A DNA stretch of 44,388 bases, from positions 1-44,388 of IMG/VR virus record IMGVR_UViG_3300029448_007258. One strand, given 5' to 3'. Origin of the DNA: a virus. This document shows positions 15,887 through 39,233 of this stretch, one piece after another (the first letter of the stretch is position 1; every line of letters starts with the position of its first letter). The notes below the pieces were generated by a model. The model worked only from the letters and a program-made list of their open reading frames with translations. It had not been told where the DNA came from and ran no database searches. Both the position numbers and the translations under genes were made by a program.

Positions 15887-15990
15887 TACTCACTCTCTTT
15901 CTTTACACTCAACATTTTAACAATCATATCTAATTTCTTTTCTATTGACGCTAGAAGGTTAATAAGCTGATTTGATGTTTTTTCATCCAT
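15886..15990 (-). CDS. Very small helical protein
   Basis: 34 residues: MDEKTSNQLINLLASIEKKL then DMIVKMLSVKKESE. CAGGAG sits 7 bases upstream and it overlaps the Mom-like gene's end by 8 bases. One amphipathic helix; probable oligomerisation peptide. Function unknown. Confidence 0.65.
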   Translation of the reverse strand: MDEKTSNQLINLLASIEKKLDMIVKMLSVKKESE

Positions 15991-16747
15991 GATTTACTCC
16001 TGTTTTGTTATTATAAACTTTTACCTTTATTACTTCTGGTTCCATTATATCCGCTGTTTTAGGATAAGGAAATATAGGATGTTTTAGATTCTGTGTAGCC
16101 GTTCTCTTCTCTCTCTTAGTACCGAGCAGATACACATACCTATGTTTTCTCAACTCCTTCTTTACCCAAAAATCTTTCTCTACCAAGCTCTTCATCTTTT
16201 CTATGTTGTTTGTTCCATAATATGGAAATATAGTTCTACCATGTTGCCATTTACCATCCTCTTCCCATTTAAATAACCAACTGTCATTTGGTCTTATCCT
16301 ATTACCCTGATATAACCAATTGGTTGCTTGGTATATAGTACCTACATGACCTTGTTGGGGATCTGAGTATGATATGAGAGCCTTTATATCTTTTCTATTC
16401 TTCTTTAACCAATTAAAGCCTTCTCCTATCAGATACGATTCAACGTTACTTCCATAACCATCATGCACAAATAGTCTTACTAATTCGTATACATTTTCTC
16501 TTGGTATAGCAGCTGATATCGAAGCGCCTGAATGTCTACCTATCGGATCACCATAACATATTGTACCGATTAGTTTCTCTTCTGGCTCATCAAAAAATTG
16601 GTGTTCATTACCTGTGGTGTAATATAACCCTAAAGCTATACTACATTTAGTCCATTGTTTAGAGTAGTGGTATTTAACCACCATACTTTTAGCAACCTTT
16701 CTATCTATTTCCCTAACCGATAATTTTGAGGTATCTACATATTTCAT
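15983..16747 (-). CDS. mom: Mom-like DNA-modification GNAT protein
   Basis: 254 residues, close to Mu Mom. Features: KYHYSK (25-30), ELVRLF (88-93) and SYSDPQQGHVGTIYQATNW (126-144), the strongly conserved Mom core, then KHRYVYLLG (201-209). Mom is a GNAT-fold protein that hypermodifies adenine and shields phage DNA from restriction enzymes. The zinc-finger translational activator Com of Mu is not found nearby. Whether the same chemistry occurs cannot be read from sequence. Confidence 0.85.
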   Translation of the reverse strand: MKYVDTSKLSVREIDRKVAKSMVVKYHYSKQWTKCSIALGLYYTTGNEHQFFDEPEEKLIGTICYGDPIGRHSGASISAAIPRENVYELVRLFVHDGYGSNVESYLIGEGFNWLKKNRKDIKALISYSDPQQGHVGTIYQATNWLYQGNRIRPNDSWLFKWEEDGKWQHGRTIFPYYGTNNIEKMKSLVEKDFWVKKELRKHRYVYLLGTKREKRTATQNLKHPIFPYPKTADIMEPEVIKVKVYNNKTGVNHG

Positions 16748-20605: not shown

Positions 20606-21617
20606 TTAAAGACTCCAATATTTCTGTTATGTAAGGTACAAAATTCTTTTCATTGTATAACGATTTAATATAATTTTCTTTAGCTGAAAAACTACACTCT
20701 CCGTAAAAATCATTATCTTTTAATTTATTAGCTAATAGTTTAGCTGAGTATAAATCACCATCTTTTACTGTTAGTTCCGAATGAAGTTCTTCTTGTGTAT
20801 CCAACCCCTCATAACCAATACAAGGTATGCCGTGAAATGCACAATTCAATGCAAATGTACCAGCAGCGTGAGTTGGCATCAGATGAACACCTACGTGGTA
20901 TTGGCTTAAATTATTTATCCAATCCACCCAAGTCATATAAGGTAAATGTTGTATATCCATCTCATCTTCTCTATCTATTTTTCTACCCATTGATGGAGCG
21001 AATATTGGCATATCAAACTCTTGTGCGATTACATAAGAATCAAAACCACCATACCATCTTACCATATTACCACCGATAATTGCCTTATCCTCTTCATAAG
21101 CCTTTGGGCTTGGCAAATCACCATACTCATCCACCAAGGTATCGTATTTAGAAACTATATTTAGCTTTTCGGTTAACATTAGTGTCGGCATCTTATGTAC
21201 AGGTTTATTTGTAATACCCTTATAATAATTTACATCTTTGTGGTTGTGAGCAAATAACATATCAAACTCTGTGAGGGCATTAAACCACCAAATCTGTTGT
21301 TCCATTGTGTAGTCTTGAAATAACCAATGAGGACCTTCTTGCATTGATATGGTTTTCTTACACAACTTCTTCAAGTTACCTATCATATCAAACTTCATTA
21401 GTTCTTCTGTCTTTGTTTTAGGTAGGGTTACGATACCAAAATCAAAATGATTCTCACCAAAGTGCTGTAGCACCTCCGATATCTGAAATATAGGGTAATG
21501 TTCAGCTCCTAAAACATACTTAGTGGACACATCATTTCTCATATTAGGATTGTCCAATCCAACTTTACCTTGCCAACCACCTTCAGTAAACCAAGCTATT
21601 TTATAGTCTTTTAACAT
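20598..21617 (-). CDS. GT-B-type glycosyltransferase-like protein
   Basis: 339 residues. The C-terminal half (VRWYGGFDSYVIAQEF..., HVGVHLMPTHAAGTFALNCA, HGIPCIGYEGL) looks like the donor-binding half of GT-B enzymes, where a small residue-rich helix holds the nucleotide. The N-terminal half is less conserved. Donor unknown. Confidence 0.65.
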   Translation of the reverse strand: MLKDYKIAWFTEGGWQGKVGLDNPNMRNDVSTKYVLGAEHYPIFQISEVLQHFGENHFDFGIVTLPKTKTEELMKFDMIGNLKKLCKKTISMQEGPHWLFQDYTMEQQIWWFNALTEFDMLFAHNHKDVNYYKGITNKPVHKMPTLMLTEKLNIVSKYDTLVDEYGDLPSPKAYEEDKAIIGGNMVRWYGGFDSYVIAQEFDMPIFAPSMGRKIDREDEMDIQHLPYMTWVDWINNLSQYHVGVHLMPTHAAGTFALNCAFHGIPCIGYEGLDTQEELHSELTVKDGDLYSAKLLANKLKDNDFYGECSFSAKENYIKSLYNEKNFVPYITEILESLNG

Positions 21618-22519
21618 TTATTAACCATCTCCAACATTTCTTCCCAACTCATTTTTTCAGCACTAGCTGAATTATATGGTTCAAATAATCTATTTACTTC
21701 AGTATTCTTTTCAGCTTTTATATGTATGTCATCATCATAAATAAAAGTACGAGCTATTTCTCTTTCAGATATTAAATCCTCATCTCTTTTTTCACCAGGC
21801 CTCTTACCGACTATCTCTATGTCATTAGAAATTACTTTAGCTAAATCTAACATATTCACACATTTCATCTTATACGACTTTACAAAACCACCACCATATT
21901 TTTTAGTAAAATCAATAGTTCTATTAATTAAACTAGCAGCATCTTCTTTTGTAAATATTAATCTGTTCATCTTTGGGTCTGTAAGTTTAAGTGGTTTACC
22001 TTCTGATTTTAACTTTAACCAAAATGGTAATACTGAACCATTACTATGAGCCACGTTAGCAAATCTAGTCAAAGCAAATCTACTACCATTATTGTTATTA
22101 CTATTCATAAAGACTCTTTCCATCAGATACTTTGAAGCACCATAGACACTCTCTGATAAGCAAGCTTTATCTGTACTGACACCAATGGTTATTGGCACAT
22201 CATTTATAATACTAGCCTCTACTACATTTAAACTACCTATAACATTTACGTTACAACCAGCAATAGGATTCTGCTCCATCAAATCGATATGTTTCATAGC
22301 AGCTGAGTGGACTACCACATCTGGTTTTACCTCTTTAAATACTCTTAACAGTAAAGACTTATCTTCAATATTACCTATATAACATTTAACACTTGGATAC
22401 TCTCTTTTTAGATTGGTTATATTTTCTTCGTTTCTACTGATACTGACATACTCATTGTCGTTCTGTGCGATAAGAGATTTACCTACAGTCCCAGTTCCTC
22501 CTGTTATCAATACTTTCAT
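21611..22519 (-). CDS. UDP-sugar 4,6-dehydratase/epimerase (CapD/PseB-like)
   Basis: Starts at ATG 22519 (AGGAG upstream); 302 residues. MKVLITGGTGTVGKSLIAQN is the NAD site; VHSAAMKHIDLMEQNP and STDKACLSESVYGASKYLME are diagnostic of the CapD/PseB family, with the S/T-D-K and Y-x3-K motifs. Members act on UDP-GlcNAc to open routes to deoxy-amino sugars. It lacks the membrane domain of long CapD proteins. Confidence 0.87.
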   Translation of the reverse strand: MKVLITGGTGTVGKSLIAQNDNEYVSISRNEENITNLKREYPSVKCYIGNIEDKSLLLRVFKEVKPDVVVHSAAMKHIDLMEQNPIAGCNVNVIGSLNVVEASIINDVPITIGVSTDKACLSESVYGASKYLMERVFMNSNNNNGSRFALTRFANVAHSNGSVLPFWLKLKSEGKPLKLTDPKMNRLIFTKEDAASLINRTIDFTKKYGGGFVKSYKMKCVNMLDLAKVISNDIEIVGKRPGEKRDEDLISEREIARTFIYDDDIHIKAEKNTEVNRLFEPYNSASAEKMSWEEMLEMVNKC

Positions 22520-22520
22520 T

Positions 22521-23252
22521 TTAACTCCTAAATGCCATTTTATTATCGTAATCAACTTTAATTTGAGGATAAAACTTTTTTTCTATATACCTAAATATAT
22601 CTTGGTCTTGTGAACCCTTTGGATAATCCTTTGGTTGACTACTTAAATAATCTCTATAATCATCCATAGTTACCCCATGTGGTAAAGCATATTTCATAGC
22701 TTCTTGTATCATTTTTTTTACAAAAGAGGTTCTACCTATGTAGACTCCACTATTTAAATACCTACCTCTAACATTTATGGTATCAACCCACTTCTTTACA
22801 TTTGGCATACAGTTATAACCATCGGTAGAGTGTGTGGACATAAAAAGAGCATCACAGTCGTATGAGCGAAATATATCAATCACCCTCTGTGGTTCATCCA
22901 CCCATATGACATCTATAGCATCTAAACACATAAAATACTTTGTTTTACAATCACCAGAATTTAAATAATTGTGTAACATTTCAAACTTAAATGTATTTCT
23001 CCACGGAAGTCTGGCATCTTTTAGAACAACCAATTCCATTCCCAAATACTCCATATTTCTTTCTAATATGGATTGCTCCTCATAGCCCGATAGATGTGGT
23101 ATTATCCTATCCGCTAATGTTCCTTCATTTCTACAAGTAACTATTGTTAGGTTATCAGGCTTTTGGAACTCATCAGTTCCATTTTGAATTAATTGTTCCA
23201 TAGCTTGTTTCACTATATGTCTATCGTGAATTATCGGCTGTGTTATATCCAT
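22521..23252 (-). CDS. GT-A glycosyltransferase (PLOD-type)
   Basis: 243 residues. KYFMCLDAIDVIWVDEPQRV replaces the usual D-x-D, GRYLNSGVYIGRTSFVKKMI is the family's Y-L-N-S-G stretch, and KGSQDQDIFRY matches the D-D-Q-x-x-F element. These are marks of the procollagen-lysine glycosyltransferase-like fold often found in large phages. Donor and acceptor unknown. Confidence 0.72.
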   Translation of the reverse strand: MDITQPIIHDRHIVKQAMEQLIQNGTDEFQKPDNLTIVTCRNEGTLADRIIPHLSGYEEQSILERNMEYLGMELVVLKDARLPWRNTFKFEMLHNYLNSGDCKTKYFMCLDAIDVIWVDEPQRVIDIFRSYDCDALFMSTHSTDGYNCMPNVKKWVDTINVRGRYLNSGVYIGRTSFVKKMIQEAMKYALPHGVTMDDYRDYLSSQPKDYPKGSQDQDIFRYIEKKFYPQIKVDYDNKMAFRS

Positions 23253-24124: not shown

Positions 24125-24687
24125 GAGAAATCCAAATCGTATTTATCTGTATTGTAGATAGCAGAAGCTGAATACTTAACATTACCAGTCAATATCTTAT
24201 AACCTATTTCATCTTTAATATCATACATTTTTCCACCAACATGACCAGATTCATCTCTAATTTGAGAACCACCTTCAAAGAATACAACCGAGCCACTGTC
24301 TATTTGGTTTTTAACTTTATCATATAATTTCATCAATTTTTCAGAAGTATTATTTATATCAAAATAAAGTAAATCAAATTCCTCCGGCTCCTCTATCCAT
24401 TCAAAGAAATTTAAATTATTTAATGTTATGGAATCTTCCACACCCCAAGCTGAATATTGAGCTTGAGTACTTACTTGTTTTCCCCAATACTCATCATCCC
24501 ATATATCATAAGACTTAATGTGTCCATCTATATTATTTTCTTTTAGAGCCTTAGCCATACATATTGTGGTATAGCCTGAACCAGGACCAAATTCTATTAT
24601 TCTTTTTGGTTTTAATGTAACTACAAAATCATATAGTATTGGAAGCCATTCATATTTACCGTGTTCTGGATAGTTCATTGAACTCAT
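24121..24687 (-). CDS. Class I SAM-dependent methyltransferase
   Basis: 188 residues. RIIEFGPGSGYTTICMAKAL is motif I (SAM-binding G-x-G-x-G) and FDLLYFDINN is the motif post-II acidic strand. It probably methylates a sugar or a sugar-linked acceptor, by context. Short but complete. Confidence 0.75.
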   Translation of the reverse strand: MSSMNYPEHGKYEWLPILYDFVVTLKPKRIIEFGPGSGYTTICMAKALKENNIDGHIKSYDIWDDEYWGKQVSTQAQYSAWGVEDSITLNNLNFFEWIEEPEEFDLLYFDINNTSEKLMKLYDKVKNQIDSGSVVFFEGGSQIRDESGHVGGKMYDIKDEIGYKILTGNVKYSASAIYNTDKYDLDFS

Positions 24688-25619
24688 TACATATTCTCCT
24701 TAACTTTACTAATAAGATATTCTAATTCAATAAAGGATATTTTTTCATTCATCGGTAGTGAAACAGTATGTTTCTCAACATTTTCTGATTTTGGTAAATT
24801 AATTTTCTTACCATCATTATAAGTGGAATTAAGATGTAATGCTGGATAATGTATACCACAAACTATCCCAGCTCTTTTCATATCATCGATAAATTTTTCT
24901 TGATTCACAACCTCTATCCTATACAGATGTTTACTAGTATTTTTATAACCTAGCTCTTTGTTATATATATCAACCAGTTTATCCAAAGTACTTATTTTTT
25001 TATCATAGTGTTCAAAATTATTCATTATAATTTTAGCTTGGATGGAGCTCATATAGAATTTATAGCCAGGAAAAGATATTCCCCTTTCCCAATTATTATT
25101 AGAAAATGTAGTTCCATTTAAAACTGCTTGTTTAAACCATTTATATTTTTTATAATCATCTGTTACTATTACACCACCATCGGCACCACCTAAAGGTTTA
25201 GTTGGGTAATGACTGAATATCATTAAATCATTTGGTTTACACTCTTTCCTAAATTGATTTGGTTCTAATTTTTGAGCTGAATCAACCACCTTATATGTTC
25301 TGAATTTGTGTAGAATATAAGAATCACCAACCCATTTTACATCATCAGTAAACTCTACTCTATTACCACTTGTTATTATAGCATTAGCAACCACAGGCGG
25401 AATTATACTTGGTATTTTGACTGTGCGAGGATTCATATATTCTTCCATCTTCATTATTAAGAATATAGCGTTAGTAGCACTATTAATAGCACAAGCATAT
25501 TTAGCACCCACATAGTCAGCAATTTTCTTTTCATACTGAATTACTATATCGTCGTGTAACATATTAGAAAATTCAGATGTATCTATTGTATGATTATTTA
25601 TATTAAATAGCTGTATCAT
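24687..25619 (-). CDS. DegT/DnrJ/EryC1/StrS-type sugar aminotransferase
   Basis: 310 residues, shorter than the usual 370. INSATNAIFL is the PLP phosphate pocket, VVDSAQKLEP matches the V-x-D-x-A-Q element and SHYPTKPLGGADGGVIVT carries the Schiff-base Lys141. It would transfer an amino group to a keto-sugar nucleotide. Together with the FdtA- and RmlC-like genes it suggests a 3- or 4-amino deoxyhexose. Confidence 0.85.
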   Translation of the reverse strand: MIQLFNINNHTIDTSEFSNMLHDDIVIQYEKKIADYVGAKYACAINSATNAIFLIMKMEEYMNPRTVKIPSIIPPVVANAIITSGNRVEFTDDVKWVGDSYILHKFRTYKVVDSAQKLEPNQFRKECKPNDLMIFSHYPTKPLGGADGGVIVTDDYKKYKWFKQAVLNGTTFSNNNWERGISFPGYKFYMSSIQAKIIMNNFEHYDKKISTLDKLVDIYNKELGYKNTSKHLYRIEVVNQEKFIDDMKRAGIVCGIHYPALHLNSTYNDGKKINLPKSENVEKHTVSLPMNEKISFIELEYLISKVKENM

Positions 25620-30308: not shown

Positions 30309-31044
30309 TTAACATCTCCAATTTTTCAACATCCTTACACACTCTTTTTATATCTTCATAATATCTACCATGACCTTTTGCTGGATTCACTCCCCATGGT
30401 TTGTGTAATCCAAATGGTGCTTTATCATCTAATGGATTAATGTATCCATTATCTATTGAAAAGCTTATCACATCTTTCACCTTTGGTTTAGTCCTTATCC
30501 TATCTGTTACAAAGTAATCCTCACAAGGATTTCCACCCCTATCTAAATATGGCTGTAATTCGTTTTTAATTATATCCAACATAAAACTTTTCTTTCTAAT
30601 TGACAACCCACCATTCATAACTCTATCATAAGATTCGTCAATAGATCTAGGATTAAAGCTACCACCCCACCATCCACCGATATAATCAAAGTGTTCAAAG
30701 TCTTTAACATTGTATTCTGAATTAGTACATAGCATCGAATCACATTCAAAATACAATACAGTTTCACCAACCACCTTATTCCAAAAATCTTCTGTCAACA
30801 TAATCTCTAAGCTAGAATCATCAGCACTAATTGACTCTATATTAAGATTAGTAAATGTTGTTTTCTTTTTGACATTACTCAAAAAATCATCATCAAACAT
30901 AATATCATTAATATAATCGTAGTTATTAGAGCCATGAAATATCTGTAACTTCCACTCATCTGGTAGAATAGACATAACATTACTCAATACAAATGGAAGA
31001 GCCATGTGTTTTCTTGTCTCCACTATTACTGCTACTTTTTCCAT
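30298..31044 (-). CDS. DUF5672-type putative glycosyltransferase
   Basis: 248 residues. VLYFECDSMLCTN supplies an acid pair, FDYIGGWWGG and RVMNGGLSIRKKSFMLDIIK are the characteristic DUF5672 segments, and a conserved CEDYFVT follows. These proteins look like GT-A enzymes. Donor unknown. Confidence 0.75.
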   Translation of the reverse strand: MEKVAVIVETRKHMALPFVLSNVMSILPDEWKLQIFHGSNNYDYINDIMFDDDFLSNVKKKTTFTNLNIESISADDSSLEIMLTEDFWNKVVGETVLYFECDSMLCTNSEYNVKDFEHFDYIGGWWGGSFNPRSIDESYDRVMNGGLSIRKKSFMLDIIKNELQPYLDRGGNPCEDYFVTDRIRTKPKVKDVISFSIDNGYINPLDDKAPFGLHKPWGVNPAKGHGRYYEDIKRVCKDVEKLEMLNGL

Positions 31045-32672
31045 GCTTTACTCACCAAAATACCATAGTCTCTAAAGTATAGATAGTCTATATTAGTTCT
31101 TAAAAAACAATCCAATGCGTGTTCTGGAGTTTCTACTATAGGTTCTCTATCGTTAAAGCTTGTGTTAAGAACTATTGGAACACCAGTCCTTTCTCTAAAC
31201 TTATCTATGAAATTATAATACCATTCATTATCTTCCTTACTGACAGTTTGTAATCTAGCCGTATCATCGAAGTGAACTACTGCTGGAACTTTTTCAGACA
31301 TACCCTCTTTAAATTTCATAGCTAAATTCATATACGGACTGTCAGCATCATGAACAAACCAATCCTTAACATAATCCCTCAGTACCGATGGAGCAAATGG
31401 TCTGAACCATTGTCTATGTTTAACCCTTTCATTGACTATATCTTTTGTTTCTGCGTGTGTCGGGTCAGCTAAAATACTTCTATTACCTAAAGCCCTTCTA
31501 CCCGATTCCGAACCACCACCGAATACCGATATTATTTTCTTATTAATCATTGTTTGTACTACATAATCATCATCAGCCCCTATGACTTCAATTTCATCTT
31601 CTCTTTCTTTTATAGCAGCCTCAACCTCACTTTCTGAATATGTATAACCCAAATATGGACTCCAATTCTGTGGCGTATCTTTTATTCTTGGATTATCTAA
31701 TATATGATGCCATACATATCTAGAAGAACCTAAAGATAATCCAGCATCATATGGTATTGGATCTACAAATATATTTATACCAGGAAACCAATCTAACATC
31801 TTACCTACAGATACACAATTAAGACTTACCCCACCTGATAGACATAGGTTTTTTGGTTTGTGTTCTTCGATGTATGGAGTTAATAAGGCTCTGATAACTT
31901 TCTCTGTTTCTTTTTGTAGAGAGGCTGATATGTCAAACCTATTCTGTTCTTCTTTATCAGCTTCTTTTTTTAGATAATCAAAGTCTATCGAACCTGCGCC
32001 ATCTCCACCAAATAAACCATCTGTTAGTTTATTTTCAAAGTAAGACATATACTTTTCTGGATTCCCCAAAGCAGCCATTCCCATTACAGTACCTGCTTGG
32101 TCTCCTCTTGGGTCTCTCCAAGTTCCAAGACCAAATATTTTACTTGTACACATAGACCAATCTTTTCCTAAATTTATAGCTCCATTTGGAATTATTTCTA
32201 ATGGTTTTATTTTATTTCCCTTACCACTCCAAAAAGTAGTACAGGTTACCAAAGCATTTTTAATCGTATCAATATCAGATTTATTATGTAACGAGCCATC
32301 TCCATTGTCAATACCACCACCATCAATTGTAACAATCAATGCCTCTTCATAGTCGCTAGTAAAAAAAGCATTAGCTGCATGAGATTGGTGGTGACCTATG
32401 ATATAAAGTTCTCCACCATTTTTTTCAATTATCTCTTGACATCTATTGAAAGAATCCATATATTTGTTATCAACCATACCACCAGTACGATGTGTCACCA
32501 TATATTTTATATCATCTAAATCATTTTCATTATCTAAAAAGAATTGTATTGAATTAGCAACTGAGTTTTTTCTTCTGTTAAATCTTTCCAATTCATTGTG
32601 TATTGTTGGTATACCATCTTCTAATATACTATAAGCTGAATCATGTCCGCTGTGAAACCCTACTATTTTCAT
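31032..32672 (-). CDS. NodU/CmcH-type carbamoyltransferase
   Basis: 546 residues, full length. MKIVGFHSGHDSAYSILEDG, GHHQSHAANAF (93-103) and a C-terminal YrdC-like/transferase part with GGGSESGRRALGNRSILADP and FRPFAPSVLRDY. The His-x3-His metal site is intact. It moves a carbamoyl group from carbamoyl phosphate to a hydroxyl, here probably a sugar. An unusual phage cargo. Confidence 0.9.
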   Translation of the reverse strand: MKIVGFHSGHDSAYSILEDGIPTIHNELERFNRRKNSVANSIQFFLDNENDLDDIKYMVTHRTGGMVDNKYMDSFNRCQEIIEKNGGELYIIGHHQSHAANAFFTSDYEEALIVTIDGGGIDNGDGSLHNKSDIDTIKNALVTCTTFWSGKGNKIKPLEIIPNGAINLGKDWSMCTSKIFGLGTWRDPRGDQAGTVMGMAALGNPEKYMSYFENKLTDGLFGGDGAGSIDFDYLKKEADKEEQNRFDISASLQKETEKVIRALLTPYIEEHKPKNLCLSGGVSLNCVSVGKMLDWFPGINIFVDPIPYDAGLSLGSSRYVWHHILDNPRIKDTPQNWSPYLGYTYSESEVEAAIKEREDEIEVIGADDDYVVQTMINKKIISVFGGGSESGRRALGNRSILADPTHAETKDIVNERVKHRQWFRPFAPSVLRDYVKDWFVHDADSPYMNLAMKFKEGMSEKVPAVVHFDDTARLQTVSKEDNEWYYNFIDKFRERTGVPIVLNTSFNDREPIVETPEHALDCFLRTNIDYLYFRDYGILVSKAWKK

Positions 32673-33475: not shown

Positions 33476-34615
33476 TTAATACAATATTTTTTTAATTTCT
33501 TGACTAACTTCTTTTGATTTAATCAAAGTCATACACTTACCATCATACGGACAAGGGAATTGGTCGTGGCAGCTTAAACAATCCAATTCCTTTCTGACAA
33601 ACTTTTTTCCAAGACCAAGCAAATCTGTTTCTTGATAAGGTGTAGGTCCATAAAAGGTAATGATGTTCTTTTTAAATGTAATGGCTAGATGTAAAGCCAT
33701 CGTATCACCTGTAACAACTACCTTAGATAAGTTTACTAAAAAACAAAACTCTTCTATTGTGTATTTGTCTGTAGTATTAATAATATTATCAGATGTATAT
33801 GAATTTGATAGTTTATAATTTCTTCTTATTTCATCTTGACCACCAGCTAATATTATCTTATTATTTGAATCTTTTAGTAAGTCACCAATTAATTCTTCGT
33901 AACCATCATATGTCCATTTTTTATGTGGAAACACAGGACCACATCCGGTGTTTAGTAAAATTAGATTATCAGCTGATGTAATATTATTCTCTTTACAGAA
34001 CTTAGACTCAAATTGTTTATACTTAGAATCATCCAAGTTAACAATCATTCTCTCATTATCAAACTCTAACTCAGAAGCCTCAAATATCATTTCTTGATAA
34101 GTCTTTGTATTACTTTGTTTAGCTCCCCAATTGTCTAGACAAATATCATAGTGATATTTAGTTCCATCGTTCAGAGGGAAAGGATAACCATCGGTAGATA
34201 AACCATAACCTCGCTTATCATTTGAATTAAATAATGTAATCATAGATGTTGCTTTTGAATCTTTGTCTAAATTTATTATTGTATCAAACTCTTGGCATTG
34301 TAATGCCCTTACAGTCTCATCATTGTATGAAAGCACTTCATCAATAAACTTATTACCTTTTAAGAAAAAAATAGATTGAGGTTGAGTTAACCAAATTAGC
34401 TTACAATTCGGATATTTCTTTTTAATTCCCTCTGCTAAGGGTGTACATCTTATAACATCACCCAAAGCATCTAATTTTATCAGTAATATTCTATGTGAGT
34501 ATTTTTCGTAGTAAGGACTGTTACTATCCCAACAGTCATGCTTTCTATCTAACCAATAATATTCACAGGGCCTATCACCTTTGAACTTCTTACACGAGCC
34601 AGTCTTTGAAATCAC
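33476..34615 (-). CDS. ADP-heptose-type glycosyltransferase (GT9)
   Basis: 379 residues. RILLIKLDALGDVIRCTPLA (about 43-62) is the GT9 opening; LILLNTGCGPVFPHKKWTYD and VVTGDTMALHLAITFKKNII followed by FYGPT are the donor-binding half. A Cys-rich N-terminus (about 1-35) and a Cys-rich tail (LDCLSCHDQFPCPYDGKCMT) suggest a bound metal. It neighbours heptose-biosynthesis genes, consistent with heptosyltransferase. Confidence 0.85.
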   Translation of the reverse strand: MISKTGSCKKFKGDRPCEYYWLDRKHDCWDSNSPYYEKYSHRILLIKLDALGDVIRCTPLAEGIKKKYPNCKLIWLTQPQSIFFLKGNKFIDEVLSYNDETVRALQCQEFDTIINLDKDSKATSMITLFNSNDKRGYGLSTDGYPFPLNDGTKYHYDICLDNWGAKQSNTKTYQEMIFEASELEFDNERMIVNLDDSKYKQFESKFCKENNITSADNLILLNTGCGPVFPHKKWTYDGYEELIGDLLKDSNNKIILAGGQDEIRRNYKLSNSYTSDNIINTTDKYTIEEFCFLVNLSKVVVTGDTMALHLAITFKKNIITFYGPTPYQETDLLGLGKKFVRKELDCLSCHDQFPCPYDGKCMTLIKSKEVSQEIKKILY

Positions 34616-35255
34616 TTAAAAAACCCTTTACTGAATAGTCTGTCATTGGATGTTCTAAGATGCCTGGAAATAAGTTGTAACCAGCAGTAACAATGTGACC
34701 ACCAGCTGCCCAAGACTGCACTATATCCCTTTCCTTTCTTATACTACCAACTATAATTTCAGAATTTATATTATTTTTATCAAAATTATTTCTTACATTT
34801 GTAAGAACTTTCAATGGATTTCCACCATAGTCTAATAACCTATTATAAAATAGTGAAACGTATCTAGCCCCAGCCAATGCTGCTAACTCCATCTGAGCTT
34901 CAGTAAAACAGCAAGTTACATTTACATCAATATCCTCTTTGTGTAATTTACTAACCACTTCAAGTTCTTCATAACCAACAGGTATTTTAATATTTAAATT
35001 TTCATATTCTAATGCATCATATATTTCTAATGCTTGTGAATACATCTCAGCTGGCTTTTCTGCAAATACCTCAACACTTAATGGAACGTTATCATACTCC
35101 TCACAAATTTCTGTAATTTTATCAATATGTTTTATGAAATCTGATTTCGGTTCTTTTGACATTAATGATGGATTCGTAGTAACACCACTAACAAACCCTT
35201 TTTTTAATGTTTCTTCGATATGTTCTAAATTAGCTGTATCTATAAAAAATTCCAT
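34590..35255 (-). CDS. talC: Transaldolase (TalC/FSA type)
   Basis: 221 residues, complete. Asp6, TTNPS (26-30), NIKIPV with Schiff-base Lys90, CCFTEAQMELAALAGARYVS and GSIRKERDI match small transaldolases. Cyanophages carry related genes to boost the pentose phosphate flow. Here the neighbours are heptose genes, so making or draining sedoheptulose 7-phosphate may be its role. Confidence 0.9.
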   Translation of the reverse strand: MEFFIDTANLEHIEETLKKGFVSGVTTNPSLMSKEPKSDFIKHIDKITEICEEYDNVPLSVEVFAEKPAEMYSQALEIYDALEYENLNIKIPVGYEELEVVSKLHKEDIDVNVTCCFTEAQMELAALAGARYVSLFYNRLLDYGGNPLKVLTNVRNNFDKNNINSEIIVGSIRKERDIVQSWAAGGHIVTAGYNLFPGILEHPMTDYSVKGFLSDFKDWLV

Positions 35256-35257
35256 AA

Positions 35258-35677
35258 TTACTCCTTATCTTCTATGAATTTATAACTGTGTCCATCTTCC
35301 ACTAAGTGTGAATCTCCATCATCATCTTTAGTGGAAGCTTCTATTATTACTGTGTCCTCTAATGCCATTCTCATATGCATTAAACCTGGTTTTATGTGAA
35401 ATACATCACCTTTTTGTAGTATGATAGATTTGTTTTTAGCTCTTCCAACTCTTAAACCAACTTTTAACAAACCTGAATCAATATAGTATGATTCAACTTT
35501 TTTTACGTGATATTCTAAACTACTCTGTGAACCCTTTCTCATAAAAATCTTTTTTACACTATAATCATCTGTTTCAAATAGCGTGTCCATATGTCCCCAA
35601 TATTTATCAATACTTTTTATTGGTTTCTCTATCGGTGGAATATCTGTTATCCCATATTCAATTTCTTTATTGTCCAT
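35258..35677 (-). CDS. Cupin, mannose-6-phosphate isomerase type II-like
   Basis: ATG 35677 gives 139 residues (upstream start 35719 is possible). KYWGHMDTLF, MRKGSQSSLEYHVKKVESYY and LQKGDVFHIKPGLMHMRMAL form the single cupin barrel of type II phosphomannose isomerase relatives; one or two metal His remain. Possible sugar isomerase or epimerase. Confidence 0.75.
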   Translation of the reverse strand: MDNKEIEYGITDIPPIEKPIKSIDKYWGHMDTLFETDDYSVKKIFMRKGSQSSLEYHVKKVESYYIDSGLLKVGLRVGRAKNKSIILQKGDVFHIKPGLMHMRMALEDTVIIEASTKDDDGDSHLVEDGHSYKFIEDKE

Positions 35678-36347
35678 AATAACTATTTTCTCCGTGTTTT
35701 CTAAAAAAGTGTTTGTCAATTAAATTGGTATCCATTTTAACATCGGTAAGTATACAAGTACGATAAGCTAACTTAGCAACGTGTTCTAAAACTATAGCAT
35801 TTTCTACAGCATCTATTATAGACTCACCCCACACTACTGGCCCGTGACTTGGTAAAAGAGCAGCTTTCATATGTAATGGATTTATCTTATTTTCTTTAAA
35901 AAAGTTTACTATAGACTTACCACTATTCTTTTCAAAGTCATTGTCTATTTCATTTTTGGTTAAATCATTTACTACTGGAATTTCACCATAAAAGTAATCA
36001 GAATGTGTTGTTCCCACACAAGGTATTGGTAGTTTAGATTGTGAAAATATAGTAGCATATTCAGAGTGAGTATGTACTACGCTCGTAACACCATCAAATC
36101 CTTTGTATATTTCTAAATGTATGTCCGTGTCTACTGACGGCTTGTATTCAGATTCGATTTGGTATTTTTCTTTATTTGACATAGCAACCGTAACTAAATC
36201 ACTCCATCCTAAATCTTGAACAGGAACTCCTGATGGTGTTATAGTAACTAAATCTTTGTTAGTATCACTTCTAAAACTGACATTTCCCCAAGAACCAATT
36301 ACCAAACCACTTTCACATATTTTTTTATATCCATCGTACACATTCAT
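35667..36347 (-). CDS. Class II aldolase/AraD-family protein
   Basis: 226 residues. GSWGNVSFRS, TPSG, VVHTHSEYATIFSQSKLPIP (zinc His pair) and LPSHGPVVWG are the class II aldolase/adducin motifs; the third zinc His lies in LEHVAK. It acts on sugar phosphates as aldolase or 4-epimerase. Position between kinase and cupin genes suggests sugar-phosphate supply. Confidence 0.86.
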   Translation of the reverse strand: MNVYDGYKKICESGLVIGSWGNVSFRSDTNKDLVTITPSGVPVQDLGWSDLVTVAMSNKEKYQIESEYKPSVDTDIHLEIYKGFDGVTSVVHTHSEYATIFSQSKLPIPCVGTTHSDYFYGEIPVVNDLTKNEIDNDFEKNSGKSIVNFFKENKINPLHMKAALLPSHGPVVWGESIIDAVENAIVLEHVAKLAYRTCILTDVKMDTNLIDKHFFRKHGENSYYGQ

Positions 36348-37288
36348 TAGATATTCTCCAAATAATATTTTAGTTGTTTTTTCTTCGGACAGATTGTTCC
36401 GTGATTTTCAACAGACAGTCCAGCCCAACAATTACTAATAAATAGTGAATCTTCTGGAGACTCTTTCCAATTTGTTAAACATAAGGCAGAAATAAAACTA
36501 TCCCCAGCACCACATGGGTCTACCTCTTCAATGTCTATAACTTCACTATGATATTTCTCACCACCCATAAATAAAGTAGAACCACCCCTGCCACTTGTAA
36601 CACAAATATCACAACCAAATATTTGCGGTAAATCTTCTATAGATTGATTTTTACCTAAATTAAATTCAGCTTCTAATTTATTCATAACGATTAAATCAGC
36701 ACCTTTAAAATTAATATGATTTGAAACTAGTCCCCTACCATAATCTGATATCTGTGAACTAACAACTATTGGTATTGATTTTTTATTTAGAACAGGCATC
36801 AATCTATTTAAAAAATCTTTTGTGAACAAACCATGTCTGTAATCTATCAACATTACAACATCGAATTTATCATCTAATGTATCCTCTATATTTTTAATCA
36901 TCTTATCTATTGATTCTTTCTTTATAGATTTATTATCTATTACATTTACCTGTAAATGTTTGTAATTAGAGCCGCCCCTTTCAATCCAAAACCTTTCTTT
37001 AATAGTATTTTTTCTATCATCTTCAACCACACTGTGTAGTTTAATATCCTTTATAGATTCATAGGTTTTTGTATACTCATCATCTCCAAGCAAAGTTAAG
37101 AAAGTTATATCAGCTCCAAGCTCTTTTAGATTACTGACAACATTTGCAGAACCACCAAACGTATGTTTCTTTTCTATAAGTTTGGATTTTAATGTGGGAG
37201 TTTCTAATGATAAACCTACAGCTTTAGCATAAGTCCAAACATCCAATATGACATCTCCTATCACAAGAACCTTTTTGTTATTAATCAT
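36347..37288 (-). CDS. hldA: Heptose-phosphate kinase (HldE N-domain/HldA, PfkB fold)
   Basis: 313 residues. KVLVIGDVILDVWTYAKAVG, TFGGSANVVSNLKELGADIT and the ATP motif VDPCGAGDSFISALCL identify the PfkB family, and the overall order fits the HldE kinase domain that makes heptose 1,7-bisphosphate. In this phage the adenylyltransferase half is a separate, RpiB-fused gene directly upstream in transcription. Confidence 0.85.
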   Translation of the reverse strand: MINNKKVLVIGDVILDVWTYAKAVGLSLETPTLKSKLIEKKHTFGGSANVVSNLKELGADITFLTLLGDDEYTKTYESIKDIKLHSVVEDDRKNTIKERFWIERGGSNYKHLQVNVIDNKSIKKESIDKMIKNIEDTLDDKFDVVMLIDYRHGLFTKDFLNRLMPVLNKKSIPIVVSSQISDYGRGLVSNHINFKGADLIVMNKLEAEFNLGKNQSIEDLPQIFGCDICVTSGRGGSTLFMGGEKYHSEVIDIEEVDPCGAGDSFISALCLTNWKESPEDSLFISNCWAGLSVENHGTICPKKKQLKYYLENI

Positions 37289-38129
37289 TATATCCCTTTA
37301 TTTTTTCTATAACATCTGTAGTAGATTTATCCGTTACTATTGGAAATATTTTTATGATTACATCTTCATTTATATCATCCCTTTCCCTTATCTCATCAGC
37401 AGTAAATTCACCACCTCTGACTACGACATCAGGATTAACACTTTCTCTAATACTTTTTGGATTAATATCATCAAAAATAACAACCTCATCAACACAATCA
37501 AGAGCTTGTATAACTGCCTTTCTGTCATTTTCAGAATTAATTGGTCTATCATCACCTTTTAACTTTTTAATAGAGTCATCAGAGTTTATAGCAACAATTA
37601 ATCTATCTCCGAATGTTTTAGCAAACTGTAGTAAACCTATATGTCCTGTATGTAATATATCAAAACACCCATTGGTAAAAACAATTTTATTAGGTTTTTG
37701 TTCTGAAATCTTCTCTACCCTCTTAACATGCCTACCTTCTCCAAATGGAGTTGAAATCCAAGAATCAACTATTTGTAAAGACTGTTTTTCGGTTGTTATC
37801 CAAGAACCAAGACATATAACATTTGAATCATTGTGTTCTCTAGTTAGTGGTGCTGTTTCTAAATTATGAACCAACGAGCCTCTTACATTTTTAAACCTAT
37901 TAACTGCTATACTCATACCAACACCAGTTCCACATATAAGTATACCAAAATCAGCGTCTTTTTTATCAACTATACTACCTAACTGATAGGCATAATCTGT
38001 ATAATCTACACTATTACTACCATCAGGCCCTAAGTCTATACAACTATAACCATTATCCTTTAAATATTCATACAATACTTTTTTTAATTCTACACCATTG
38101 TGGTCAGCTGCCAGTACTATTGTTTTCAT
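37281..38129 (-). CDS. Fusion: RpiB-family isomerase + heptose 1-phosphate adenylyltransferase
   Basis: 282 residues. Residues 1-142 are a full RpiB/LacAB isomerase: AADHNG (7-12), ICGTGVGMSIAVNRF (65-79, catalytic Cys66), REHNDSNVICLG (97-108) and EGRHVKRV. Residues 149-282 are an HldE-type cytidylyltransferase-fold adenylyltransferase: TNGCFDILHTGHIGLL (H160-x2-H163), VVRGGEF (237-243), STTDVIEKI (269-277). I know of no standard fusion of this kind. The isomerase may replace GmhA in converting sedoheptulose 7-phosphate, feeding the HldA-like kinase next door. Confidence 0.88.
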   Translation of the reverse strand: MKTIVLAADHNGVELKKVLYEYLKDNGYSCIDLGPDGSNSVDYTDYAYQLGSIVDKKDADFGILICGTGVGMSIAVNRFKNVRGSLVHNLETAPLTREHNDSNVICLGSWITTEKQSLQIVDSWISTPFGEGRHVKRVEKISEQKPNKIVFTNGCFDILHTGHIGLLQFAKTFGDRLIVAINSDDSIKKLKGDDRPINSENDRKAVIQALDCVDEVVIFDDINPKSIRESVNPDVVVRGGEFTADEIRERDDINEDVIIKIFPIVTDKSTTDVIEKIKGYND

Positions 38130-38431
38130 TATATTTCCTCAATTCTTTTAGTCTTATCACATATTAATAAATCATAATATGGTTTTTCACCTGTGATTAA
38201 TTTATGGTACTTACAACCCCAACTATCTAATTGTTTTTTAGTTAATTGATAATAGTCATTACCTGATGTAGAACCTCTAGCAGTCCAATATGTTATATCA
38301 TTACCATCCTCATACAACTTATTTATCTTAGCTATATTTTCATGACTGGGTTCAGCTTCATTATAATCACCTTTCCAATCATCATAAAAACAGATAGTTA
38401 AATCTATGTCAACATATAATTTTTTACCCAT
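38129..38431 (-). CDS. Small HAD phosphatase (GmhB-like role possible)
   Basis: ATG 38431, preceded by GAGGAG, gives 100 residues. YVDIDLTICF (motif I D-x-D), ITYWTARGS (motif II) and Lys/Asp motif DLLICDKTK (motif IV) fit a short HAD phosphatase related to capsule-biosynthesis hydrolases. It could remove the 7-phosphate of heptose bisphosphate, filling the GmhB step; that is inferred only from context. Confidence 0.72.
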   Translation of the reverse strand: MGKKLYVDIDLTICFYDDWKGDYNEAEPSHENIAKINKLYEDGNDITYWTARGSTSGNDYYQLTKKQLDSWGCKYHKLITGEKPYYDLLICDKTKRIEEI

Positions 38432-39233
38432 TGTATAACTCCTCATATACTCTTTTCATCCAATATGTTCTATCCCTACCCATATCGCTTGGTGGTATAG
38501 CATTAAATTGGTATACCCAAGCTGAATTGTAAAGGTGAGTTAAGCTATCTTCCCAATAGCAGTTGGGATGATAAAAGAATAATTGTTTTCTAATCATATC
38601 CATCATACCAAATTGTCTTGGTAACAGATTTAACTCCACACCAAATTCTTTTCTCATACAATTCATCATTGATATATCACTTCCTGTTAACAAAATATCA
38701 TAAGATTTAATAATCTTTTCTTTGTTTGTTTCATAAAAATCAAAAACCTTTTCAAAAAATTCTTTATGATTCTTATTAATAACAACAAAGCCTGTTTGGA
38801 AAAATTCAAATGATGGTATACAAAATTGTTTGTTCCAAAACATTTTAGAGTATCCGTTTATAGCTCTATTTATCCACTCAAAGTCACCATCAGTTAACAC
38901 ACTTGTAAATTTACCATCCGTCATCTCAAAAAAGTTTGGACAATCAGGATGAACTACAGAATCAGCATCCACAACTAATACTTGGTCATATTCTATTTCA
39001 TTATGTTCTAATATATTCAACACCTGCCATCTTTGCCAAGTTATCAACATCTCAGACTCAGGACAAAGTAAGTCCGACATAATATAAACTTCGTGACCAT
39101 TCTTTTTAGCCCAAGCTTTCCAAGAGTTTATCCCATACTCATAACCATGATGCCTGTTTGAATGTCCTATACTTGATTCGCCAGTTAAATCTTTTTCTCT
39201 TTTTATATAAGGTATAAAAATTATGTTTTTCAT
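38424..39233 (-). CDS. GT-A glycosyltransferase (GT8-like)
   Basis: 269 residues. YDQVLVVDADSVVHPDCPNF is a clear D-A-D metal site; FFQTGFVVINKNHKEFFEKV and FYHPNCYWEDSLTHLYNSAW follow in the order of GT8-like enzymes. Donor unknown. Confidence 0.72.
   Translation of the reverse strand: MKNIIFIPYIKREKDLTGESSIGHSNRHHGYEYGINSWKAWAKKNGHEVYIMSDLLCPESEMLITWQRWQVLNILEHNEIEYDQVLVVDADSVVHPDCPNFFEMTDGKFTSVLTDGDFEWINRAINGYSKMFWNKQFCIPSFEFFQTGFVVINKNHKEFFEKVFDFYETNKEKIIKSYDILLTGSDISMMNCMRKEFGVELNLLPRQFGMMDMIRKQLFFYHPNCYWEDSLTHLYNSAWVYQFNAIPPSDMGRDRTYWMKRVYEELYNG

Follow-up and report, generated by a model that had tools for sequence, protein, structure and literature searches.

Known heptose activation systems and the viral locus

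The canonical ADP-heptose pathway starts from a ketose phosphate of the pentose phosphate pathway and uses an isomerase, an anomeric kinase, a HAD phosphatase and an HldC-type nucleotidyltransferase, and a glycosyltransferase of family 9 (GT9) is often encoded nearby. We found the same types of enzyme, presumably with the same kind of starting compound, in a module of an uncultured virus (IMG/VR record IMGVR_UViG_3300029448_007258), of whose 55,907 bases we analyzed positions 1 to 44,388 as the window. The module is built around a fusion of RpiB and HldC, unlike the canonical HldE fusion. It also differs from the canonical pathway in having an isomerase of the RpiB fold instead of the SIS-fold GmhA, no HldD, a HAD of a different family, and three extra components, namely an AraD-type epimerase, a phosphomannose isomerase (PMI)-like cupin and a dedicated transaldolase. 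As judged from gene content and residue patterns, the module probably encodes a self-contained nucleoside diphosphate (NDP)-sugar pathway of the ADP-heptose type, whose product would be something other than ADP-glycero-D-manno-heptose.

As summarized in PMC11461863 and PMC11573728, the cross-kingdom study of NDP-heptose enzymes by Tang et al. 2024 found heptose nucleotidyltransferases in viruses and many domain fusions; the architectures are transferase alone, kinase-transferase and isomerase-kinase-transferase, and the phosphatase is reported absent in viruses. Measured against these summaries, an isomerase-transferase fusion without a kinase lies outside the three architectures, and a HAD phosphatase, of the BcbF rather than the GmhB type, is present here. 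The residue preceding STT in the module HldC is mostly Tyr, not the Arg that precedes it in the STTR5 motif of the promiscuous heptose transferases (PMC11461863). Since the queries of the survey were the canonical isomerase and phosphatase, it could have missed the module. Our literature search, for which subscription papers were mostly out of reach, found no description of the RpiB-HldC fusion or of the module.

Cyanophages S-SSM7, S-T4 and Sf-CH8 carry homologous HldC, kinase, HAD and cupin genes in a viral glycan cluster, but RpiB, AraD and transaldolase are absent there and HldC is unfused. This quartet (L006 9004-11778 in S-SSM7, L007 8986-12636 in Sf-CH8 and L008 8992-12605 in S-T4) could be a complete four-step sugar-activation set. 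Its HAD is labelled 'phosphoheptose isomerase' (phrog_1238) and the cupin of S-SSM7 and Sf-CH8 'putative nucleotidyltransferase', both apparent misannotations.

Layout and recurrence of the module

Seven genes on the minus strand of the window encode, in order of transcription, a HAD phosphatase, the RpiB-HldC fusion, an HldA-like kinase, an AraD-type epimerase, a cupin, a transaldolase and a GT9 enzyme. They overlap or abut by a few bases, an arrangement like that of a translationally coupled operon. An earlier note on this DNA had named five of them, and all five are present with intact frames, the fusion as one frame with two domains; the note had missed the epimerase and the cupin, which lie between the kinase and the transaldolase. 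The ratio of nonsynonymous to synonymous substitutions (dN/dS) between the window and its relative L001 (88% identical) is 0.07-0.18 across all seven genes, and all module genes are under purifying selection.

Alignment-guided scans of viral and bacterial or metagenome-assembled genome (MAG) contigs recovered full-length copies of the fusion from 48 viral and 12 bacterial or MAG contigs, which rules out that it is limited to viruses. The bacterial carriers are a Prochlorococcus and a Pelagibacteraceae single-amplified genome (SAG), five Patescibacteria, an Armatimonadota, an Acidobacteria/Longimicrobiales pair, a Proteobacteria MAG and a further MAG with the label archaeon. Among bacteria the fusion is rare (2 of 379 genomes of one carrier's phylum and 1 of 150 of another's), and neither 50,697 phage records nor 72,556 plasmids contained a full-length match. 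In the fusion tree the Prochlorococcus copy is nested within a viral clade, thus suggesting exchange between virus and host.

After removal of near copies, 35 loci with sufficient flanking sequence were left, and partner genes were scored within 6 kb of the fusion. Kinase, cupin and transaldolase were each found at 34 loci, HAD at 32 and AraD at 31, and all five together at 28 of the 35, whereas at 37 stand-alone RpiB loci with equal flanking room no partner gene was found at all. That the genes belong together, as the earlier note had assumed, is supported. They most often run in the order fusion, kinase, AraD, cupin, transaldolase and HAD; cupin and HAD are fused to each other in two Patescibacteria. 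The block is also conserved within polysaccharide clusters in bacteria. Since the block recurs, mostly in the same order, in many contigs, and L001 has the same gene order with omega values of 0.07-0.18, a chance open reading frame or an assembly artefact can be ruled out.

In three loci (L085 11688-13173, L091 12675-14185 and L092 10372-11541) a second, unfused HldC-kinase-cupin set directly follows the six-gene module, hinting that some viruses with two HldC sets make two activated sugars.

Enzymes of the module

The fusion (37281-38129) is a single reading frame of 282 amino acids, with the isomerase at residues 4-141 (PF02502) and the nucleotidyltransferase at residues 142-278 (PF01467/TIGR02199). 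In its AlphaFold2 model both domains are confident; they match RpiB and Burkholderia HldC structures, and a short flexible linker (residues 134-143) connects them. The RpiB domain passes two curated cut-offs (143.7 bits against 138.65 for TIGR01120 and 165.3 against 88.3 for TIGR00689) and retains the catalytic residues Cys65, His98 and DH and the phosphate-binding R132/H133/R136. Fold and catalytic residues are common to the module RpiB, the LacAB galactose-6-phosphate isomerases and the RpiB ribose-5-phosphate isomerases; the module enzyme differs from both in its fused nucleotidyltransferase and in the fixed residues Asn10, Pro34, Trp109 and Gly-Glu 129-130 (C. thermocellum numbering). The nucleotidyltransferase is closest in sequence to the ADP-heptose enzyme HldC, with a score of 159.9 bits against a TIGR02199 cut-off of 181.5. 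It retains the HxGH, KG..RP and STT motifs, while GGDY is changed to GGE(W/F) in all 42 sequences compared.

The PfkB-family kinase (36347-37288) scores 133.9 bits with TIGR02198, below the cut-off of 345, and its nearest solved structure is HldA (4e84). It keeps G-A-G-D of the ATP site and S-x-E-x-P, a hallmark of HldA. Four basic residues, R31, R118, K154 and K179, are invariant in 31 canonical HldA/HldE sequences; in the module kinases they are replaced, and K115 is fixed instead. By sequence the kinase is thus closest to the ADP-heptose enzyme HldA, with a diverged pocket. That HldC and HldA are the nearest families agrees with what the earlier note had said of the adenylyltransferase and the kinase.

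The small, cap-less HAD phosphatase (38129-38446) is of the EcbF/BcbF capsule-phosphatase type. It matches phrog_1238 (E 1e-22) and PDB 9iqw, a 'capsule biosynthesis protein' (E 1e-20), the family alignment shows the DxDxT, TAR and KP..D motifs, and its relative in L016 matches TIGR01689 (EcbF-BcbF). The window protein matched no NCBIfam family, and hence none of the GmhB models. Because of the HAD motifs and the EcbF-BcbF relatives, we reject for this protein the 'phosphoheptose isomerase' label of its PHROG. A second, larger HAD resembling beta-phosphoglucomutase lies beside or within several bacterial module copies, not viral ones (L013 3439-4095, L014 8235-8900, L017 9260-9928 and L022 13110-13973).

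The AraD-type class II aldolase-fold 4-epimerase (35667-36347) matches 1jdi with an E value of 9e-89 and stays below two curated cut-offs (249.5 bits against 257 for NF006047, and 219.7 against 389 for a second model). The metal and catalytic residues and most of those that contact the substrate (N28, S44, G45, S74, D76, H95, H97, D120, H171 and Y229, E. coli numbering) are invariant in 54 module AraDs, so that the Zn ligands H95/H97/H171 and the catalytic D120/Y229 are all retained. Because of these invariant residues the enzyme is assigned as an epimerase and a fuculose-type aldolase is rejected. It shares its fold, metal site and Asp120/Tyr229 with L-ribulose-5-phosphate 4-epimerase, but arabinose genes are not nearby, and every linked copy has another residue in place of Ser75, which we take to belong to the phosphate site for the substrate. 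Of 34 canonical AraDs from two phyla, 33 have Ser75; none of the 54 module AraDs does, and all of these have Val, Thr or Ile. The module AraDs occupy three separate places in the AraD tree (a virus-marine group, a Patescibacteria group and a deeper clade), and the function was therefore either kept or recruited more than once.

The single-domain cupin (35258-35719, with a probable ATG at 35677) resembles the PMI domain of the type II GMP/PMI enzymes. Its matches are weak for the PMI part of TIGR01479 (E 8e-6, 24.9 bits against 373) and fall just short for PF01050 (E 7e-5, 23.5 against 23.6). Relative to the PMI motif (PWG, QxH...E...H), Q is changed to E, or to H in cyanophages, and the four presumed metal ligand positions are E, H, E and H. 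The AlphaFold2 model has a predicted local distance difference test (pLDDT) score of 88, and its fold matches are metal cupins of a generic kind, lyxose and phosphomannose isomerases among them, which are uninformative on function. Since cyanophages keep HldC, kinase, HAD and cupin together without RpiB, AraD and transaldolase, the cupin appears linked to the activation half of the module, and the data suggest that it may itself be a PMI-type isomerase.

The transaldolase (34590-35255) belongs to the short FSA/TalC subfamily, with matches to TIGR00875, phrog_440 and 3r8r (E 2e-62). All 36 sequences compared have Glu59 and Phe131 (numbered by their positions in fructose-6-phosphate aldolase, FSA), where FSA has Gln and Tyr; we therefore reject an aldolase identity. 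With this true transaldolase signature, the enzyme can supply sedoheptulose 7-phosphate, in line with what the earlier note had proposed.

The GT9 enzyme (33476-34615), an ADP-heptosyltransferase-like glycosyltransferase, matches PF01075 (E 4.5e-14) and is below all heptosyltransferase I, II and III cut-offs; it may be the acceptor-side enzyme. Its association with the other genes, also noted earlier, recurs in several unrelated bacteria, as GT9 adjoins the module in Armatimonadota, Patescibacteria and Pelagibacteraceae loci. Because it is near only 7 of the 35 fusion loci, the acceptor side is variable.

Canonical heptose genes in the window and in carrier genomes

There is no SIS-fold GmhA in the window, whose isomerase has the RpiB fold, and no HldD in the module. 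None of the three short-chain dehydrogenase/reductase genes of the window reaches the HldD cut-off, and an HldD role for them is rejected. Among 11 carrier genomes GmhA was never found over the cut-off, with no match at all in the five Patescibacteria. HldD was over the cut-off in only two of the 11, the Proteobacteria and Longimicrobiales carriers, which have canonical HldE and HldD over curated cut-offs on contigs other than that of the module. The Armatimonadota carrier has a canonical HldE-type adenylyltransferase in addition to the fusion, and the five Patescibacteria have no HldD over the cut-off. The remodelling of the lipopolysaccharide core that the earlier note had suggested would have to allow for the Patescibacteria among the carriers, which are not known to make heptose-containing lipopolysaccharide. 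The module thus coexists with the canonical route in some genomes and, as far as these incomplete genomes show, stands alone in others.

In the Pelagibacteraceae copy (L019 7676-8260), a divergent GmhA-like SIS protein lies beside GT9 in the same cluster as the fusion.

Proposed pathway and its alternatives

RpiB and LacAB make 2R aldoses from ketoses, while GmhA makes a 2S manno sugar. Epimerization of sedoheptulose 7-phosphate at C4 leads to D-manno-heptulose 7-phosphate, which is to the heptoses what tagatose 6-phosphate is to the hexoses. In the scheme that we propose, the transaldolase would use fructose 6-phosphate and erythrose 4-phosphate to make sedoheptulose 7-phosphate, the AraD enzyme would invert C4 to give D-manno-heptulose 7-phosphate, and the RpiB domain would convert this into D-glycero-D-galacto-heptose 7-phosphate, just as LacAB, which are relatives of RpiB, turn tagatose 6-phosphate into galactose 6-phosphate. 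The HldA-like kinase would then phosphorylate C1 of the aldose phosphate, the HAD enzyme would take off the terminal 7-phosphate of the resulting bisphosphate, and the HldC domain would form the NDP-heptose, with ADP-D-glycero-D-galacto-heptose as the leading guess, for use by GT9 or another transferase. The cupin would be a PMI-like accessory enzyme, either an isomerase or an epimerase.

What the genes are, that they are conserved as a unit, that their catalytic residues are intact and that they diverge from the canonical counterparts is read from the sequences themselves, and from this we infer the substrates, the order of the steps, the nucleotide and the final sugar. A six-enzyme route for a surface or virion glycan is the explanation that we favor overall, with some reserve. 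D-glycero-D-galacto-heptose leads among the candidate products because D-manno-heptulose 7-phosphate mirrors tagatose 6-phosphate, the LacAB substrate; that the product is exactly this sugar is a tentative suggestion more apt to be wrong than right. The chances are about even that the module is an undescribed pathway which viruses exchange with hosts such as Prochlorococcus, Pelagibacter and Patescibacteria and in which a transaldolase, a C4 epimerase and an RpiB-type isomerase fused to the activating nucleotidyltransferase together make a new NDP-sugar, be it an ADP-heptose of galacto or gluco configuration or an octose. We regard the module as a variant form of biosynthesis of the NDP-heptose type that has a fair chance of leading to an undescribed NDP-sugar. 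For several heptoses of bacterial polysaccharides no activation route is known. If this is true, the RpiB-HldC fusion is a genetic marker, and the module a six-enzyme recipe, for an undescribed activated sugar; viruses would carry a whole sugar-activation pathway rather than a transferase alone, probably to rebuild the host surface or to decorate the virion, and viruses and hosts would have this undescribed sugar pathway in common.

Several observations weigh against this scheme. The named cyanophages carry HldC, kinase, HAD and cupin without RpiB, AraD and transaldolase, and the cupin has no explained step. AraD is missing at 4 of the 35 loci, including a 197-kb virus record without AraD anywhere, so that the C4 step may be dispensable there (a gluco variant) or supplied by the host. 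Val75 also occurs in a sister subfamily of AraDs that lies outside the module, so that Ser75 may be an acquisition of canonical AraD and not a loss in the module. One carrier genome has an AraD with Ser75 that is not linked to the module. With these two findings, replacement of Ser75 is weakened as an exclusive marker of the module. The RpiB domain may act on a pentose, since it passes the NCBI cut-off for true ribose 5-phosphate isomerase B. The absence of genes from carriers is weak evidence, as these are MAGs or SAGs and thus incomplete.

The earlier note had suggested that the locus is the ordinary ADP-heptose route with RpiB in place of GmhA, which we consider unlikely. HldC and HldA are indeed the nearest known families, HldE enzymes accept several heptose phosphates (PMC10948575), and, provided that the cupin is the isomerase, every one of the four canonical steps has one candidate in the cyanophage quartet. 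But a simple replacement leaves AraD (31 of 35 loci) and one of the two isomerases without a job, and the 2R product of RpiB and LacAB is not the 2S product of GmhA. Kinase pocket residues that are invariant in HldA are replaced, canonical HldE and HldD are already present in two carriers, and the module itself has no HldD.

The presence of two candidate isomerases leaves room for a pentose or an octose product. For a pentose, AraD would convert D-xylulose 5-phosphate into L-ribulose 5-phosphate, RpiB would make L-arabinose 5-phosphate, and kinase, HAD and HldC would yield NDP-L-arabinose. Pentose 5-phosphates are the natural substrates of AraD and RpiB, and the RpiB domain passes the rpiB equivalog cut-off; this route is nevertheless improbable in our assessment, since the transaldolase found at 34 of 35 loci would be idle, Ser75 of canonical AraD is changed, and the kinase and transferase are nearest to heptose enzymes, with a GT9 partner.

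No more probable than the pentose is an octose, for which RpiB would provide ribose 5-phosphate, the transaldolase would add three carbons to give octulose 8-phosphate, AraD would invert C4, the PMI-like cupin would turn the ketose into an aldose, and kinase, HAD and HldC would activate it. This assigns a step to each of the six proteins, gives RpiB its natural substrate and makes the cupin a PMI-type isomerase. However, nothing direct points to an octose, the host usually provides RpiB and transaldolase activities, and the kinase and transferase would have to take an eight-carbon sugar.

Auxiliary carbon metabolism (a boost of the pentose phosphate pathway as with cyanophage TalC, the location in a glycan cluster being incidental) is very improbable: transaldolase is a common phage auxiliary gene (phrog_440), but a fused nucleotidyltransferase, a sugar-1-kinase and a phosphatase make no sense for central carbon metabolism, and the block is conserved within bacterial polysaccharide clusters too.

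The virus and its glycan gene cluster

The source is an uncultured T4-like virus, whose replication block is T4-like and encodes a family B DNA polymerase, a sliding clamp and a clamp loader (48.8-54.4 kb of the record). The module sits inside a minus-strand cluster at about 18-45 kb that encodes glycosyltransferases, epimerases, methyltransferases, cupins and a carbamoyltransferase. The last of these (31032-32672, minus strand; PF16861/PF02543, phrog_1601) is Nol-like and a possible tailoring enzyme of the viral glycan cluster.

At the end of the record (54559-55848, corresponding to L005 10560-11849), a 429-amino-acid open frame, which by eye resembles the C-terminal part of a TonB-dependent outer-membrane receptor, matched nothing in PHROG or Pfam; the frame may belong to the virus, to flanking host DNA or to a chimeric join. 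This one virus also encodes two DNA modification proteins that are Mom-like and paralogous to each other (window 15983-16747, matching phrog_1384, and L005 6408-7175). A PseB/FnlA-like dehydratase (21611-22555) and a PseC-like aminotransferase (24687-25619) in the window point to a further product of this viral glycan cluster, a pseudaminic-acid-type or other amino sugar.

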